A stretch of DNA of 64,000 bases, from positions 1 to 64,000 of the IMG/VR virus record IMGVR_UViG_3300021389_000005. One strand, given 5' to 3'. The position numbers were made by a program, and so were the translations under genes. This stretch comes from a virus. Positions within the stretch are counted from its first letter, which is position 1. Every line of letters begins with the position of its first letter. Below the pieces are notes generated by a model. That model was not told the origin of the DNA, did not search any database, and worked only from the letters and a program-made list of their open reading frames with translations. Positions 54,045 through 60,329 of the stretch are shown in pieces.

Positions 54045-55889
54045 ATGGCACTACAAAACCTAAAAACATATTTTGAATCTACTAATATCAATGACTTTAA
54101 TGAGTTATTGAGTAACATATGTGTTGTAACAGAAAAAGTGCAAGCATCAAGTTTTCACGTAAGAAGAGAAGAGGTTGGTAAATTTGAATTTTTTAAGAGT
54201 GGTTCAAAAATTGCAATGAATCGCGTAGATAGAACTCTCGTTAAATATTATGAAAATGCCATTAAACATTTTAACACTATTTCAGACGAAGCGTTAAATG
54301 AAATGCCAAAAGATTGGAAATTTGGATTTGATTACATGGTAGATAAGAAAACTATCGACATAGAATATGACTTATTACCAAAAAACAATTTAATACTAAC
54401 ACATATACAGGTACTTAACGCAACAGATCCTACGAGAGTTAAGAGAGTTATTAGAGATCCTAGAATTCTTGAGAAGTGGGCAACTAAACTAGAAGTACAA
54501 GAAATATCAGTTTTATTTGAAGGTCAATTAGCATTGAATCAAAAAGAAGATCTAATAGACTTATTGTCTTTAGGTGAATCAGAATTTAAAACTAAATTTG
54601 AGAAGGAATCATTTACAAGGTTAATATACAATATATTCGATAACGGTAGAAATAAATCAGCATTAAATCTAGATTTAGATAAAGATATTGATGCATTGGT
54701 AGTAAACTTCTACGAGAATAGAAATCCTAAGAGTTTTAAACTAGAAAGATTTGATAGAATTGAATCAGAGCCTAGAAAACCATCTGACATGTATCAAATA
54801 TCTATATTAGATTTAGTTGAATTTTTAACAAGTTTTGATATATCAGATATAGAATTAAAAGAAGAGGACGCAGATCTTAGATATGTAGAATTAATGTCAT
54901 CTATATTTAATGCTTACGTAGAAAAGCACGCAACTAAATATGTAGGCGCAGATTTTGATTCAGCAGATTTTGCAGAAGGTGAAAACTTTGAACTTAATAC
55001 AGCATATATCTCTAATGAGAAAACCCTCTCACTAGTACAAAACAAAGTGTTATCGGAACTTTTTAAAATAGCACTCGGTTCTTTTAGAAAAAAGAGAAGC
55101 AAAGAAACTGATATTATAAATTCAGATCTTATGTCTCAGATTAATGAAATAGTTGAAGAGATAGAAACTATCATAATGGGTAAAACAAACGAAAAAGATG
55201 TAATGGATTTTAAAAAATATCTAATTAATCAAAAACTAAATGGCGACGTAAGTCCAATAATGGAAGGATTAACTGTAGACTATCCAGATCAGGGTAAAAA
55301 GCTAGTTAATATGTTTGTTGGTAGATTTCAGCCGTTCACATTAGGACATGCTAAGGTAATAGACACTATTAGCAAACAAAACGGACATCCTGTTGTTGTA
55401 ATATTGATTAAATCAAAGACTAAGAAAAAAGAAGATGCTTTTAAAAGACCTTATGATGAGGAAACTCAATTAGCAATGCTTAATAAATTAAAGTCTAAAT
55501 ACCCAATAGAAAAAGTATACATTTTAGATAGAGCGGCAATAGATTATATGTTTAACGCAATGAGAGCCGATGGTTACGAACCGGTACTTTGGGGAACAGG
55601 AACAGATAGGCTCAAAACATATTCGTATCAAGTTGATAAACCAGAATATAGAGAATCTTTAAATTGTAGAGAAGATTTCGGTTTATTTGAAATCCCTAGA
55701 TCTGGTAAAAACATTTCAGCAACACAAGTTAGAAATGCAATGTTAGACGGTGATGAAAAGACATTTAAAAAATTAACACCTAGACCAATTCATGGTATGT
55801 ATACTGAATTGAGAACAAAATTAGAGGTTTCTATGGGTGTTGCAGAGTCAAAATTCATGACATTTGAACAGTTTGTGAAGAAAGACTAA
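54045..55889 (+). CDS. Fusion: ligase-like N-terminal domain plus NMNAT-type adenylyltransferase
   Basis: The C-terminal domain (about 420-590) is a cytidylyltransferase/NMNAT-like nucleotidyltransferase: G-R-F-Q-P-F-T-L-G-H ((H/T)xGH motif) near 425-434, and I-S-A-T-Q-V-R-N near 563, the usual second ATP-binding motif. Such enzymes transfer AMP or CMP to make NAD or activated alcohols. The N-terminal part (1-400) has E-K-V-Q-A-S-S-F at 30-37, like a ligase motif I with D-G replaced by Q-A, then F-G-F-D-Y-M and D-L-L-P-K-N-N-L-I-L-T-H, so it may be a degenerate ligase-type domain. The final residues M-T-F-E-Q-F-V-K-K-D again show the leader core, but at the C-terminus. Only the NMNAT-like part is secure. 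Confidence 0.75.
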   Translation: MALQNLKTYFESTNINDFNELLSNICVVTEKVQASSFHVRREEVGKFEFFKSGSKIAMNRVDRTLVKYYENAIKHFNTISDEALNEMPKDWKFGFDYMVDKKTIDIEYDLLPKNNLILTHIQVLNATDPTRVKRVIRDPRILEKWATKLEVQEISVLFEGQLALNQKEDLIDLLSLGESEFKTKFEKESFTRLIYNIFDNGRNKSALNLDLDKDIDALVVNFYENRNPKSFKLERFDRIESEPRKPSDMYQISILDLVEFLTSFDISDIELKEEDADLRYVELMSSIFNAYVEKHATKYVGADFDSADFAEGENFELNTAYISNEKTLSLVQNKVLSELFKIALGSFRKKRSKETDIINSDLMSQINEIVEEIETIIMGKTNEKDVMDFKKYLINQKLNGDVSPIMEGLTVDYPDQGKKLVNMFVGRFQPFTLGHAKVIDTISKQNGHPVVVILIKSKTKKKEDAFKRPYDEETQLAMLNKLKSKYPIEKVYILDRAAIDYMFNAMRADGYEPVLWGTGTDRLKTYSYQVDKPEYRESLNCREDFGLFEIPRSGKNISATQVRNAMLDGDEKTFKKLTPRPIHGMYTELRTKLEVSMGVAESKFMTFEQFVKKD

Positions 55890-55926: not shown

Positions 55927-57447
55927 ATGAAAAAATTCGAAGAATTTATCGGTGAAGGTAAAATTACTCTAAAGAGAAAATATACTGAAAACCATCCAGC
56001 ACAAACTGCAGGAACCCACGCAAAAATTAGAAACAAAGTATTAGAAGCTATTGCTGACGGTACATTAACTCAAGAAGAATTTGATGCTATTTTAAAAGAA
56101 ATGTCAAACGATTCAGGAAGATGGATGAGAAGAAACGCAAAATACTTTAGTGTTTCTGAGGCAGGTGTTTCTCTTTCTAAGTTCGGACAAAGAGTATTAA
56201 CAACAATCAACATTTCTGAAGAAGTTGCAGAAGACGAAGTTGAAGAAGGAAATGCATTTGGAGATGCAGTAACTAAAGCTAAAGAAAACGGAGATAAAGA
56301 ATTCGAATTTGATGGTAAAACCTACCCAGTAAAAGAAGGTAGAGGATTTGTTGCGGCTGCTAAAAAAGCAAAAGACGCAGGTGAAAAAGAATTTGAATTT
56401 AATGGTAAAAAATATCCAGTACTTCTTAAAGAAGGTACTGATTTTGTCTATGAATCTTTTACTTCTTTTTTAGAAAACCTAAACGAGGCTTTCGGTTCAA
56501 TAAAACTATCTAAGTTATTCACAAGCACAAGAGGTAAAGTTGACAAATCTTTATCAGGCGCATTTTATGGTAAAACTAAAGTTGCTTTAGATAAAGTACA
56601 GGATGAAGATCTTATTGATACTGATCCAATGACAGCGTACAAGGCAAAACAAACAAACACTATTGTTTTTTATATCTCAGATACTGAGAAAGAAAATCCA
56701 CATGCACCATACGATACATATCAATCTAATAAACTCATTCCAGGTGGAGGTTATTTATTAGCGGTAGCAAGTGGAGGTAATGAATTTTACACTAACTCAT
56801 GGTCTAGCAGATACTCTGATAATAGGAACAGAACTTTATCAAAGTCTCCTAACAACTCAAGCGATACTATTGGTATTTCTAAGAAGTATAAAGGATGGGA
56901 CGCTACTGGACTTTACAATGTAAAGAGAATTGCAGAAGTTGCAGATAGAGCAGTTGTAATTAATATTGATTTATTACAACAAAAGTATTCTACAGCCAAC
57001 AAAAGAGATGAAAGATCAGCAGCAAAAGCAGGAGCGATTGCATTCAAATCTGATAAAGACTTCAAACAAGAAAACAAAAACAGATACACTCAAATTTTAG
57101 CTACTAAAGCAGCTGCATTACCATTAGATAAAATGGTATCAAGCGCAATTGATGAATTAGCTAAACAAATTCAAGACGGTTTAAAAGCTGGAGAGAAAAC
57201 TGAATACGGAGAAATCTATATCGGTAAAAACAAAAGAGGTTCTACTGTAAAATTAAAAGATGCTTCTTCACACATGTCATCTATTTTAGATGATTACTCA
57301 AGATACTGTGATTATATCGCAAGATCTGAAGAGTCTGAAAAGAAATACGGCACAGGTGAAAGATGGTACGAAAGAGAAGCTAAGACATATGCTAAATCTA
57401 TTAAAGATAGAATTAACAAAATCAAAACTTTTGATTACGCTTGGTAA
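55927..57447 (+). CDS. Packaged-type protein with two leader-like segments and K-E-F-E-F repeats
   Basis: The N-terminus M-K-K-F-E-E-F-I-G-E is a close match to the T4 internal-protein leader, with I-G-E as the cut site. Two copies of an approximately 30-residue unit (A-K-x-x-G-x-K-E-F-E-F-D/N-G-K-x-Y-P-V) follow at about 109-138 and 139-169. A second leader-like segment (E-S-F-T-S-F-L-E-N-L-N-E-A) occurs at about 175-187, just before a large C-terminal domain (190-506) that I cannot name. That domain includes R-D-E-R-S-A-A-K-A-G-A near 358-368 and ends F-D-Y-A-W. Protease cutting at I-G-E and L-N-E would release separate pieces in the head. No enzyme motif is evident. Confidence 0.65.
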   Translation: MKKFEEFIGEGKITLKRKYTENHPAQTAGTHAKIRNKVLEAIADGTLTQEEFDAILKEMSNDSGRWMRRNAKYFSVSEAGVSLSKFGQRVLTTINISEEVAEDEVEEGNAFGDAVTKAKENGDKEFEFDGKTYPVKEGRGFVAAAKKAKDAGEKEFEFNGKKYPVLLKEGTDFVYESFTSFLENLNEAFGSIKLSKLFTSTRGKVDKSLSGAFYGKTKVALDKVQDEDLIDTDPMTAYKAKQTNTIVFYISDTEKENPHAPYDTYQSNKLIPGGGYLLAVASGGNEFYTNSWSSRYSDNRNRTLSKSPNNSSDTIGISKKYKGWDATGLYNVKRIAEVADRAVVINIDLLQQKYSTANKRDERSAAKAGAIAFKSDKDFKQENKNRYTQILATKAAALPLDKMVSSAIDELAKQIQDGLKAGEKTEYGEIYIGKNKRGSTVKLKDASSHMSSILDDYSRYCDYIARSEESEKKYGTGERWYEREAKTYAKSIKDRINKIKTFDYAW

Positions 57448-57997
57448 ATAAACAATAAAAACAATTATGAAACATTTACAATTATTTGAAGAATTTCTAA
57501 ACGAAGCAACATTAAAAGAAGGAAGAGACGAAGCATTAGCTAATGCTATTCTTGCATACTTTTATGCAGTTGAAGGAACACCAGAAGGTGACGCTGTAAG
57601 AGCATTACCTGGAAATCCAATTAGATCTGATGAACCAGTAGGTGAACAAGGTGGTTTAGGCGGATGGGGAAAAGATGTTGTAAAAGATCTATCAGGTGCT
57701 AGAAGATGTCCTTCTGACTTCATGATGGGTAATGTTATATCAATAGCAGCAAACAACGGTAACTCATACTACTTTGATGGTGGTGAATTCGTAGAAGGTG
57801 ATAAAACTATTATTAAAGGAACTAATAAAATGAAATACAGAGAATTTATCGGCGAACTTATTAAGTTAAAGATAATCGAAACTCCAAAGTATTAATACTG
57901 ACAAATTCACTTGATTACGCTTGGTAATTAATAAATTTATACAAATAAAAATATAAAAATGAAACATTTACAATTATTTGAAGAATTTCTAAACGAA
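57431..57997 (+). repeat. Duplicated leader cassette (17 bp and 39 bp direct repeats)
   Basis: Two sequences recur in the same order. The 17-mer TTGATTACGCTTGGTAA at 57431-57447 (coding the end, D-Y-A-W-stop, of the 506-aa gene) recurs at 57911-57927 as non-coding sequence. The first 39 bases of the 142-aa gene (57467-57505) recur exactly at 57959-57997 as the start of the 179-aa gene. The spacings between copies are 480 and 492 bases. This marks a tandem duplication that inserted or created a leader-bearing gene. Confidence 0.92.
57467..57895 (+). CDS. Small leader-bearing protein, 142 aa
   Basis: Starts MKHLQLFEEFLNEA, with L-N-E as the candidate prohead-protease cut site, identical in DNA to the start of the following gene. 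The mature part (about 14-142) has a helix, a glycine-rich loop (G-G-L-G-G-W-G-K) and a C-terminal beta/helix region (N-G-N-S-Y-Y-F-D-G-G-E-F). The family is not recognised. No enzyme motif. Inferred internal-head cargo. Confidence 0.65.
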   Translation: MKHLQLFEEFLNEATLKEGRDEALANAILAYFYAVEGTPEGDAVRALPGNPIRSDEPVGEQGGLGGWGKDVVKDLSGARRCPSDFMMGNVISIAANNGNSYYFDGGEFVEGDKTIIKGTNKMKYREFIGELIKLKIIETPKY

Positions 57998-58498
57998 AAG
58001 GCATATAGAATGACAGGTATCTATGCAGCTAAAGGCCTAGTAGGTAGAATAATGCAAGCGTTTAAACAAGAGATCAAAACGGTAAAATACGAAGGTATTA
58101 ATGTAGTAACCCAAGAAGAAGTTAATAAAGAATGGGCTAAGTTTGAAGATACTGCTAAGAAAATGATTTTAGATCAAGTAGAAAAAGGAGCAGGTGGTAT
58201 GGAAGGTGTTCTATATGTTACCGCTAATCTTTTTAATGGATTCGCTATAGATGAGGTTACTGGTTTAAATTCTGAAGAATCAGAGACGTTATACCTTGGT
58301 TATGAAGTTGTAATTAATGTAGGTTTCATGGACGATTTTAATGGCAAAAAGGTTTATAAGAAAATCGATAAAACTGGAATGATGAATTCCCCGTTAGCAG
58401 GTAAGAGGGATCTTATTTATGGTGAATATGATGCATCAGTTGGTAATAACAATCTTGAAATTAGAGAATCTGAATACATTCAGATTGACGGAAAATAA
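57959..58498 (+). CDS. Small leader-bearing protein, 179 aa
   Basis: Starts MKHLQLFEEFLNE, the same 39 bases as the preceding gene, followed by an unrelated body: a helical part with K-A-Y-R-M-T-G-I-Y-A-A-K, then a beta-rich part (E-T-L-Y-L-G-Y-E-V-V-I-N-V-G-F). The leader is conserved while the cargo differs, which argues that the leader is a functional module. Upstream is a partial copy of the previous gene's end. Function unknown. Confidence 0.65.
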   Translation: MKHLQLFEEFLNEKAYRMTGIYAAKGLVGRIMQAFKQEIKTVKYEGINVVTQEEVNKEWAKFEDTAKKMILDQVEKGAGGMEGVLYVTANLFNGFAIDEVTGLNSEESETLYLGYEVVINVGFMDDFNGKKVYKKIDKTGMMNSPLAGKRDLIYGEYDASVGNNNLEIRESEYIQIDGK

Positions 58499-58507
58499 TA
58501 TTATAAA

Positions 58508-59779
58508 ATGGCAAAGATATTTTACGTAAGAGAAAGATCTGGAGATTATGCTCAGGTTAATTTTTTTAAAACAGAAAAAGAAGCATTAAACTACGGTATA
58601 TCTGAATGGCCAGACTTCGATATGTTCGGTGACGAAGAAGACGAAGACGATTCATATGACATGGATAATGATACATGGTGGGTTGGAGACTCAATAGACT
58701 TTAAGAAAGGTATTTTATTTTCGTTTGAAGAAGGACAGGTTTATGTTCAAGGAATGGACGATGCCGCTGCAAGAGAATATGTTAAAGAAGAAGTTGGAGA
58801 ATATGGCGCTGCTATGTTCTTTGCTAGTTTCAAAAAAGGAATGTACGGTTACTTAGGTAATGGTGCAGATGGAAGAGGTTTCAAATGGGAATGGGACGGC
58901 ATAGACTTAAATGAAAGTTCTAAATCTTTGTCTAGTAACAAATCTAATATAACACACAGTAGATCTTTTAATGCTTTTATTAATGAAAAGCATGTTGCGC
59001 CTAAAGAATATGACAATACTAAAAATTGGGAAAAAGAAGGTTCTAGATATCGTTATATTCCATTTGCGGAGTTTAAATCAAGACAAGCTGCAAAACCTGA
59101 TTTTAAAACAGGTAAAATGGAAGATATTGAAGTTGAACAGTGGTTTACAAGTATAGCTGGACAATGTGATGGTAGACTTCAAGCTAAAATATTAAAGGGG
59201 TTCGATAAACACGGAAAAGATTTCAAACAATCTGGTGATAATATGGAAACATATAAAAGCTGGATCGTTGCAGCAATGGTAAGATGTGGGTTTATGGTAG
59301 AAGGAGAAATTCAAGAAGATTTAATAGAAAATATTACACCTTCTAATATGTCAGGTATGGGACCAACTGCTTTACCAACAAGTGGAGCTGATGGTTCTGG
59401 AGATGTACCTGCTGGACAAGGCGATGCTGAAGAAGAATTTAAGAAAAGAAAAAAAGAAAGAGAAGCAATGCTAAAAAACGAATCACACATAAAAAGTTTT
59501 GAAGCTTTTTCATTTGATTTTGAAGGCGTAGATATTAAAAATCCATTTACAGATGAGACTGCAAGAATGGATGTAGATCCAAAACAGTATTATGGAAAGG
59601 AATACGCTAAGTCAGATATTAAGAAGATCATTGACGCAAGCGAAGAGTTTATTAGTAAATACAATGAATGGAAGGAATATCAACCATTAGACTCAGATGA
59701 AGATATGCATGCTGATTATGGAGAATTTGTTAAAGCATCTCTAGAAAAACTAAATGTATTAGTTAAGAAATTAGGATAA
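58508..59779 (+). CDS. Protein with internal leader-like segments, 423 aa
   Basis: Unknown family. Domain 1 (1-135) has an acidic stretch (E-D-E-D-D at 44-48) and W-W-V-G near 57. It is followed by a linker with L-N-E (134-136) and a leader-like segment R-S-F-N-A-F-I-N-E at 152-160. Domain 2 is about 165-280. A glycine/proline-rich linker (about 280-320) and a second F-x-x-F segment (I-K-S-F-E-A-F-S-F-D-F) at about 331-341 precede domain 3. Processing at L-N-E and I-N-E would divide it into units, each headed by a leader-like segment. The terminator 30 bases downstream ends this cluster. Confidence 0.6.
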   Translation: MAKIFYVRERSGDYAQVNFFKTEKEALNYGISEWPDFDMFGDEEDEDDSYDMDNDTWWVGDSIDFKKGILFSFEEGQVYVQGMDDAAAREYVKEEVGEYGAAMFFASFKKGMYGYLGNGADGRGFKWEWDGIDLNESSKSLSSNKSNITHSRSFNAFINEKHVAPKEYDNTKNWEKEGSRYRYIPFAEFKSRQAAKPDFKTGKMEDIEVEQWFTSIAGQCDGRLQAKILKGFDKHGKDFKQSGDNMETYKSWIVAAMVRCGFMVEGEIQEDLIENITPSNMSGMGPTALPTSGADGSGDVPAGQGDAEEEFKKRKKEREAMLKNESHIKSFEAFSFDFEGVDIKNPFTDETARMDVDPKQYYGKEYAKSDIKKIIDASEEFISKYNEWKEYQPLDSDEDMHADYGEFVKASLEKLNVLVKKLG

Positions 59780-59809: not shown

Positions 59810-59835
59810 AGCCCACTAGATGTGGGCTTTTTTTA
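59810..59835 (+). terminator. Rho-independent terminator
   Basis: A perfect seven-base-pair stem (AGCCCAC / GTGGGCT) closes loop TAGAT at 59810-59828 and leads into a TTTTTTT tract. It ends the internal-protein cluster. Confidence 0.92.
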
Positions 59836-59849
59836 TGAAAAAAAGTGAG

Positions 59850-59890
59850 CCAGGATTTTTTTATGTCAAATATTTGTGGTATATTAGCAG
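59850..59890 (+). promoter_or_regulatory. Repeated promoter-like element, copy 1
   Basis: A ~40-base stretch (CCAGGATTTTTTTATGTCA, then TATTTGTGGTATATTAGCAG) nearly identical to 60290-60329. The TATATTAG part is only 7 bases before the ATG at 59894, so a transcript from here would have a very short leader or none. Confidence 0.55.
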
Positions 59891-59893
59891 TAT

Positions 59894-60283
59894 ATGAATG
59901 AGTTAAAGTGCAAAAATATAATTGAAGAGGTCTACGATGATATAAAAAATCACTATGGCAGATCTAAGTATCAACATGAATTCCCAGAAGTTGAACTTCA
60001 CCATAACATTTATGTTAGAATAACAGGATGTGAAGAAGCTGAAGGTGATTGTGATCCAGATGCAGAATACGATAGACAAGAAAATAAAATAGTTGTATAT
60101 TACCCAAAGGCTGAAAATAAAGAATGGGTAATCTCAACACTATTGCACGAATATACACATTATTTACAGGACGGAGAAGAAATGCAAAGAATGTATGACG
60201 AAGATGGATATGAATATGACACTCATCCATTCGAGTTAGAAGCTATCGCTGCAGAAAAAAACTGGAAACTTTTTTTAAAATAA
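59894..60283 (+). CDS. Small zincin-type metallopeptidase-like protein, 129 aa
   Basis: Contains HEYTH at 85-89 (the H-E-x-x-H zinc/catalytic motif) followed by a downstream glutamate in H-P-F-E-L-E-A (114 or 116) that could be the third zinc ligand, as in small gluzincin-like peptidases. The N-terminal 75 residues are a short, acidic, helical-beta scaffold. Such minimal peptidases occur in phages and toxin-antitoxin or ImmA-like systems; the substrate is unknown. It is the first gene after the terminator and is headed by the repeated promoter-like element, so it is probably expressed independently and early. Confidence 0.75.
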   Translation: MNELKCKNIIEEVYDDIKNHYGRSKYQHEFPEVELHHNIYVRITGCEEAEGDCDPDAEYDRQENKIVVYYPKAENKEWVISTLLHEYTHYLQDGEEMQRMYDEDGYEYDTHPFELEAIAAEKNWKLFLK

Positions 60284-60289
60284 GTCACT

Positions 60290-60329
60290 CCAGATTTTTT
60301 TATGTCATTTATTTGTGGTATATTAGTAG
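60290..60329 (+). promoter_or_regulatory. Repeated promoter-like element, copy 2
   Basis: CCAGATTTTTTTATGTCA, then TTATTTGTGGTATATTAGTAG; differs from copy 1 by a one-base gap and a few substitutions. It lies 23 bases before the ATG at 60352, and it shows that the in-frame ATG at 60313, inside the element, is not the true start. Confidence 0.55.

Follow-up and report, generated by a model that had tools for sequence, protein, structure and literature searches.

Unrelated cargo genes with identical leaders in a T4-like phage: a variable slot and the apparent joining of two of its alleles

Two neighbouring genes with identical starts

The window, i.e., the whole 64,000-nucleotide stretch that was analysed (positions 1 to 64,000 of IMG/VR record IMGVR_UViG_3300021389_000005), is part of a 126,361-base virus record. 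It carries two neighbouring genes, A and B, which are bordered by a conserved upstream gene (U1) and by the f1 gene starting at 58508 (gene 58508) (Table 1). The first 39 nt of A and B are identical at 39/39 positions (ATGAAACATTTACAATTATTTGAAGAATTTCTAAACGAA) and encode the same 13 residues, hereafter termed the leader, whereas the bodies past the leader are unrelated ("ATLKEGRDE..." in A and "KAYRMTG..." in B). The 17 nt that end U1 (TTGATTACGCTTGGTAA) recur as non-coding sequence located 3′ of the stop codon of A. These observations had been made in the initial annotation, and all of them were confirmed.

The degenerate leader core occurred three times in the 64 kb, compared to no occurrence in 100 shuffles. 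The 17-mer was found exactly twice, where 0.2 occurrences would be expected even if 3 mismatches were tolerated. The gaps between the 17-mer and the leader are unlike, and their alignment was no better than that of shuffled sequences (19 vs 31 nt, p = 0.83). The gene end, gap and leader therefore recur in the same order, but are identical at their ends only. A duplication of the whole unit, gap included, was not found.

Table 1. Features of the U1-58508 region (window coordinates)
Feature	Description	Position	Strand
U1	506 aa, ends ...FDYAW; conserved upstream gene, left border of the slot	55927..57447	+
17-nt gene end, copy 1	Coding; final codons of U1 with its stop	57431..57447	+
Gap 1	19 nt; without relation to gap 2, unmatched to either parental allele	57448..57466	+
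Leader copy 1	MKHLQLFEEFLNE; predicted to be a capsid-targeting sequence, with a cut after E13	57467..57505	+
Cargo A gene	142 aa; homologues alone in slot in L183/L185	57467..57895	+
Junction	18/21 nt as in the start of the gene after A in A-only phages	57896..57916	+
17-nt gene end, copy 2	Non-coding; apparent tail of U1 of a B-type haplotype	57911..57927	+
Gap 2	31 nt; similar to the gap between U1 and B in L184, a B-only phage	57928..57958	+
Leader copy 2	Same sequence as copy 1 and as the B leader of L184/L001	57959..57997	+
Cargo B gene	179 aa; homologues alone in slot in L184, L226, L247 and others	57959..58498	+
f1/C gene	423 aa; conserved right border of the slot	58508..59779	+

The record encodes head genes in the order of T4-like myoviruses, with the portal protein (gp20) at 85552, a gp21-family protease at 87606 and gp23 at 90025. 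The protease is fused to an acidic scaffold-like region and has a Peptidase_S77 match above the cut-off at record positions 87678-88019. Other encoded proteins include homologues of UvsX and UvsW. No near DNA relative was found among cultured phages. In the phage collection, the nearest capsid proteins were those of an uncultured phage (51%) and of Prevotella Lak phages (38-40%). Because the closest capsids include the latter, the host is likely a member of the Bacteroidota.

Gene 58508 contains an internal leader-like peptide, SFNAFINE. Right behind it lies an insertion of 114 aa (58988-59329) that is absent in L184; no homologue of this insertion, as a free-standing cargo or otherwise, was found in any other fetched locus. 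A GMGxVxxP...GSGD motif is common to the f1 proteins and the N-terminal region of gp23. Two further repeats were observed in the window: two 90-nt repeats (70%) within U1 (56238-56417), which correspond to a repeated module of ~30 aa, and a 60-nt intergenic repeat (59831-59890 and 60270-60329, 82% identical), perhaps representing promoters.

A predicted capsid-targeting leader on unrelated bodies

We predict that the leader is a T4-type capsid-targeting sequence (CTS), which goes a step beyond the reading given in the initial annotation. In the T4 CTS, targeting depends mainly on residues 4 and 7 and processing on residues 8 and 10, with gp21 cleaving after L/I-x-E (PMC9026906). The layout of the leader matches this CTS, including the L/I-x-E cleavage motif: F7, F10, I/L11 and E13 correspond, with equal spacing, to Y4, F7, I8 and E10 of T4 IPIII. 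Of note, F7, E8 and F10 were preset by the search pattern in one leader sample, and a looser sample agreed. The N-terminus of U1 itself, MKKFEEFIGEG, has the exact 10-residue spacing of the T4 CTS (MKTYQEFIAEA at the N-termini of T4 ipII and ipIII).

The leader is carried by many different proteins. The degenerate DNA pattern of the tag matched 108 stretches in viral contigs, where the 13-residue leader precedes at least 53 families of bodies that show no detectable similarity to one another. A looser pattern gave 46 hits in 50 records that carry or are related to such phages and that were picked partly for carrying the tag, while the reversed pattern, used as a control, gave no match in the same 50 records. 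A gp21-family protease was present in 24 of the 32 leader-bearing or related records, compared to 0 of the 14 control genomes. In the structure models of A and B, the leader residues are disordered and the bodies are folded and well modelled.

From these features we infer that the leader would steer the body fused to it into the prohead core, where the gp21-like protease of the phage would remove it after E13 (LNE|A in A, LNE|K in B). The remaining body would then enter the host with the injected DNA.

What the bodies might do there is suggested by analogy. Neither A nor B had a significant match to known protein families, and no relatives of either were found in cultured phages, nor of B in genome contigs. 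Fold searches gave no significant match in the PDB for A or B and none among viral models (B only); the B model resembled tail-completion or collar proteins weakly and without significance. Other leader-bearing bodies include a cytidylyltransferase-like protein, an ATP-grasp protein and, at L094:3460-4008 (minus strand), a body with two HxT motifs that resembles anti-CBASS Acb1/2H phosphoesterases (E = 3.6e-5, below the Pfam cut-off). Since T4 Ip1, Ip2 and Ip3 block type IV restriction enzymes (PMC12373910), it is a reasonable guess that slot cargos may act against host defence.

At another locus, L073:53-649 (minus strand), the leader is fused straight to a nucleotidyltransferase-like body (GRFQPFHNGH). 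The C-terminal domain encoded by the window gene at 54045-55889 is related to this body, and this gene ends with a leader-like peptide, MTFEQFVKKD. A homologue of cargo A (55%) was also found outside the slot, at another genome position in L017 (1104-1532), between a MARKILSFEEYS gene and a deaminase-like gene.

The slot in related phages and the origin of the A+B pair

Relatives of the locus were surveyed with the C-terminal part of U1 as query. This yielded 80 loci, 59 of which had enough sequence, and the first gene after U1 was one of 15 different genes across these 59. In 21 of them no gene lies between U1 and f1; others carry between one and four leader-bearing genes, which belong to about ten families. 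B is alone in the slot in L184, L001, L004, L226, L247 and others, and A is alone in L183, L185 and L015. Tandem alleles with several cargos occur in L202, L212, L240 and L258, with L212 carrying a different cargo ahead of B. Among the relatives, A and B were found together in the window only. The locus thus has constant flanks with differing tagged genes between them, as in variable ip-type loci, and we read the U1-58508 interval as a cargo slot, which can be empty or occupied by one or several leader genes. The initial annotation had expected related phages with a single leader-bearing gene or with other cargo between the same repeats, and both kinds were found; as for the opposite case, in which both genes would be ancient, fixed and alignable along their whole length, neither gene is fixed and their bodies cannot be aligned.

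The slot also appears to record the loss of cargo. In the L186/L188/L208 lineage the cargo is gone, and a scar matching leader A at 23 of 24 nt directly follows the U1 stop codon (the best shuffled match was 17). This scar, which is common to several contigs, can be read as a fossil of cargo loss.

The sequence between A and B indicates how the pair may have arisen. Directly after the A stop codon, the window reads TACTGACAAATTCACTTGATT, while the A-only phages have TAATGACAAATTCATTTAATT, the start of their next gene; 18 of the 21 positions are equal (P ~8e-8). In the window, this relic runs directly into the second U1 end, the gap and the leader of B. A of the window is 88-98% identical to A-only haplotypes and B is 87-98% identical to the B-only haplotype L020/L184. 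The flanks give a mosaic identity profile: just upstream, U1 matches the A-only haplotype L036/L183 at 100% over positions 56948-57100, and for the 3′ part of gene 58508 the nearest haplotype is L037/L185, also of the A-only type. Since a relic of the A side is joined to a U1 end of the B type, the A+B pair was apparently made by joining two alternative slot alleles.

Leader A of the window departs from this profile. It differs from that of L036/L183 at 8 of 39 positions, compared to 17 of 390 positions in the body (p = 8e-4), but equals the leader of B in L184 at 39/39 positions. The contrast was weaker with L185 (6/39 vs 26/390 in the body, p = 0.058). An exact search of viral contigs for the leader found a single other locus, the B gene of L001. 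Identical leaders were rare in other genomes with several leaders, and among 354 pairs of leaders from different cargos and different loci only one pair was identical, namely A of the window and B of L184.

It was also tested whether leaders at one locus generally become homogenised, and this was rejected. The leaders of different cargos were on average identical at 28.5 of 39 positions within loci and at 28.2 of 39 between loci (permutation p = 0.38), and those of the same cargo at 32.4 of 39. Leaders thus seem mostly to move with their bodies, the window being an exception. The initial annotation had seen in the identical starts a recent event or continuing recombination; a recent leader exchange in this genome is supported, whereas a general continuing process is not, in view of the rejected homogenisation. 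Recent duplications of leaders are also seen elsewhere, as judged from L116:11800-12518 of a separate phage, where three leader copies follow a gp21-like protease gene within 600 nt. Two of them belong to a 93-nt exact repeat, made up of 54 nt upstream of the start codon plus the leader, whose copies lie 555 nt apart.

The simplest reading of these data would combine a leader exchange with the joining of two alleles through short homology. One parent would have been an A-carrying haplotype similar to L183/L185 and the other a B-carrying haplotype similar to L184, with the A side broken ~17-20 nt past the A stop, within the first bases of the gene that follows. This broken end would have been linked through a few homologous bases to the last 17 nt of U1 of the B haplotype. 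As a result, the two cargos would stand in tandem, with the 17-nt tail and the leader present on both sides, and cargo A would have gained the leader DNA of B by crossover or conversion inside the leader. Gap 1 is a poor match to both parental haplotypes, so that the left side requires a third source or later change.

Other explanations of the identical starts were weighed against this reading. A and B could be old paralogues whose leaders were kept identical by selection on the peptide and on codon use, given that the leader peptide is strongly conserved across many cargos. However, their bodies share no similarity, two independent synonymous encodings of the leader would be identical with a probability of only ~0.0015 under phage codon use, and the rarity of identical leaders described above, both between loci and within other multi-leader genomes, also argues against this explanation, which we consider scarcely credible. 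A role of the shared 39 nt as a 5′ element of translation or regulation, in place of a protein tag, is very unlikely. Although they are located at the start codon and the AT-rich gaps upstream are variable, synonymous leader sites vary freely among relatives while F7, F10, I/L11 and E13 are kept. In addition, leader-like peptides also occur within fusion proteins (the gene 58508 product and U1), and cargos of L232 and L202 with a 5-residue insertion still end their leader in LNE.

Two further explanations concern the tandem arrangement. The initial annotation had proposed that the gene end, gap and leader were duplicated as a unit, or that a new cargo was inserted between two copies. A tandem duplication of this kind, with a new cargo body grown or inserted between the copies, agrees with the exact, ordered repetition of both ends (17 nt and 39 nt), and the 93-nt repeat in L116 demonstrates that unit-like duplication occurs. 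The repeats do recur in order, but their duplication as a unit is not supported: the unrelated gaps make a duplicated cassette less likely, and A carries the start of its own downstream neighbour in A-only phages, which means that A arrived within an existing allele. We consider this course of events unlikely. It is also improbable that the tandem is a metagenome assembly chimera of A-type and B-type strains. The pair is known from a single metagenomic contig, the junction sequence had no other occurrence in the viral collection, and both haplotypes are present in related populations. In contrast, the repeat at the join is just 17 nt, which is below the usual assembly word size, the relic differs at 3 of 21 positions from both known parents, and the tandem multi-cargo alleles listed above come from other contigs.

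On balance, it is probable that the joint reading holds as a whole, i.e., that the leader is a CTS, that the interval is a cargo slot, that A and B haplotypes were joined in it and that A took the leader of B. A further proposal, that the leader doubles as an address tag and as shared DNA for exchanging and stacking genes of injected proteins, is possible but rather doubtful. If it were true, tagged cargos would be interchangeable cartridges between alleles and loci of a large uncultured T4-like group, and the leader itself would be one of the crossover points in cargo movement.

Comparison with known injected and processed head proteins

Injected head proteins disarm host defences ahead of phage gene expression. 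To our knowledge, only a handful of them are known, mainly from T4 and its relatives. Because one 13-residue tag is found on so many unrelated families in uncultured T4-like phages, likely injected proteins could be listed from sequence alone. The fossils in the slot appear to record both gain (joined alleles) and loss (leader scar), so that the gain and loss of injected cargo may be traceable in natural populations.

The direct precedent for the identical gene starts of the window is the ipII-ipIII pair of T4 (AF158101), where adjacent unrelated genes likewise carry an identical tag, with a DNA identity of 32 nt. As in the window, the tags of the T4 IPs have aromatic residues, I/L and a final E, and the genome encodes a gp21-type protease. 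The tag of the window is longer (13 residues vs 10 in T4), although U1 has the 10-residue spacing. The window cargos are unrelated to the T4 IPs, a single tag is shared by far more families here, and several tags lie inside fusion proteins, unlike in the T4 IPs.

The ip loci of T-even phages are reportedly polymorphic. Similar to the slot, their tagged genes are non-essential, highly variable and not the same in related phages, and at least 10 Ips have been reported (PMC12373910). The slot differs from these loci in its genome position and in its apparent sequence fossils of fusion and loss. Head proteins of SPN3US and phiKZ also share N-terminal propeptides that are cut after E by a gp21-like protease, and gp53 and gp54 have 15 identical N-terminal residues in common (PMC5694885). 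Most of these propeptides are much longer than the leader, with A-x-E or S-x-E type sites, and they do not form a swap slot.

For the join itself, a parallel is again found in T4, where short-homology joins are well documented and homologies of 2-10 bp led to amplifications and deletions, including the loss of ipIII (PMC9391042). This is the same kind of join as the one proposed for the window. In the window, two alleles of a natural population were apparently joined into a new cargo pair, instead of one cargo gaining extra copies.
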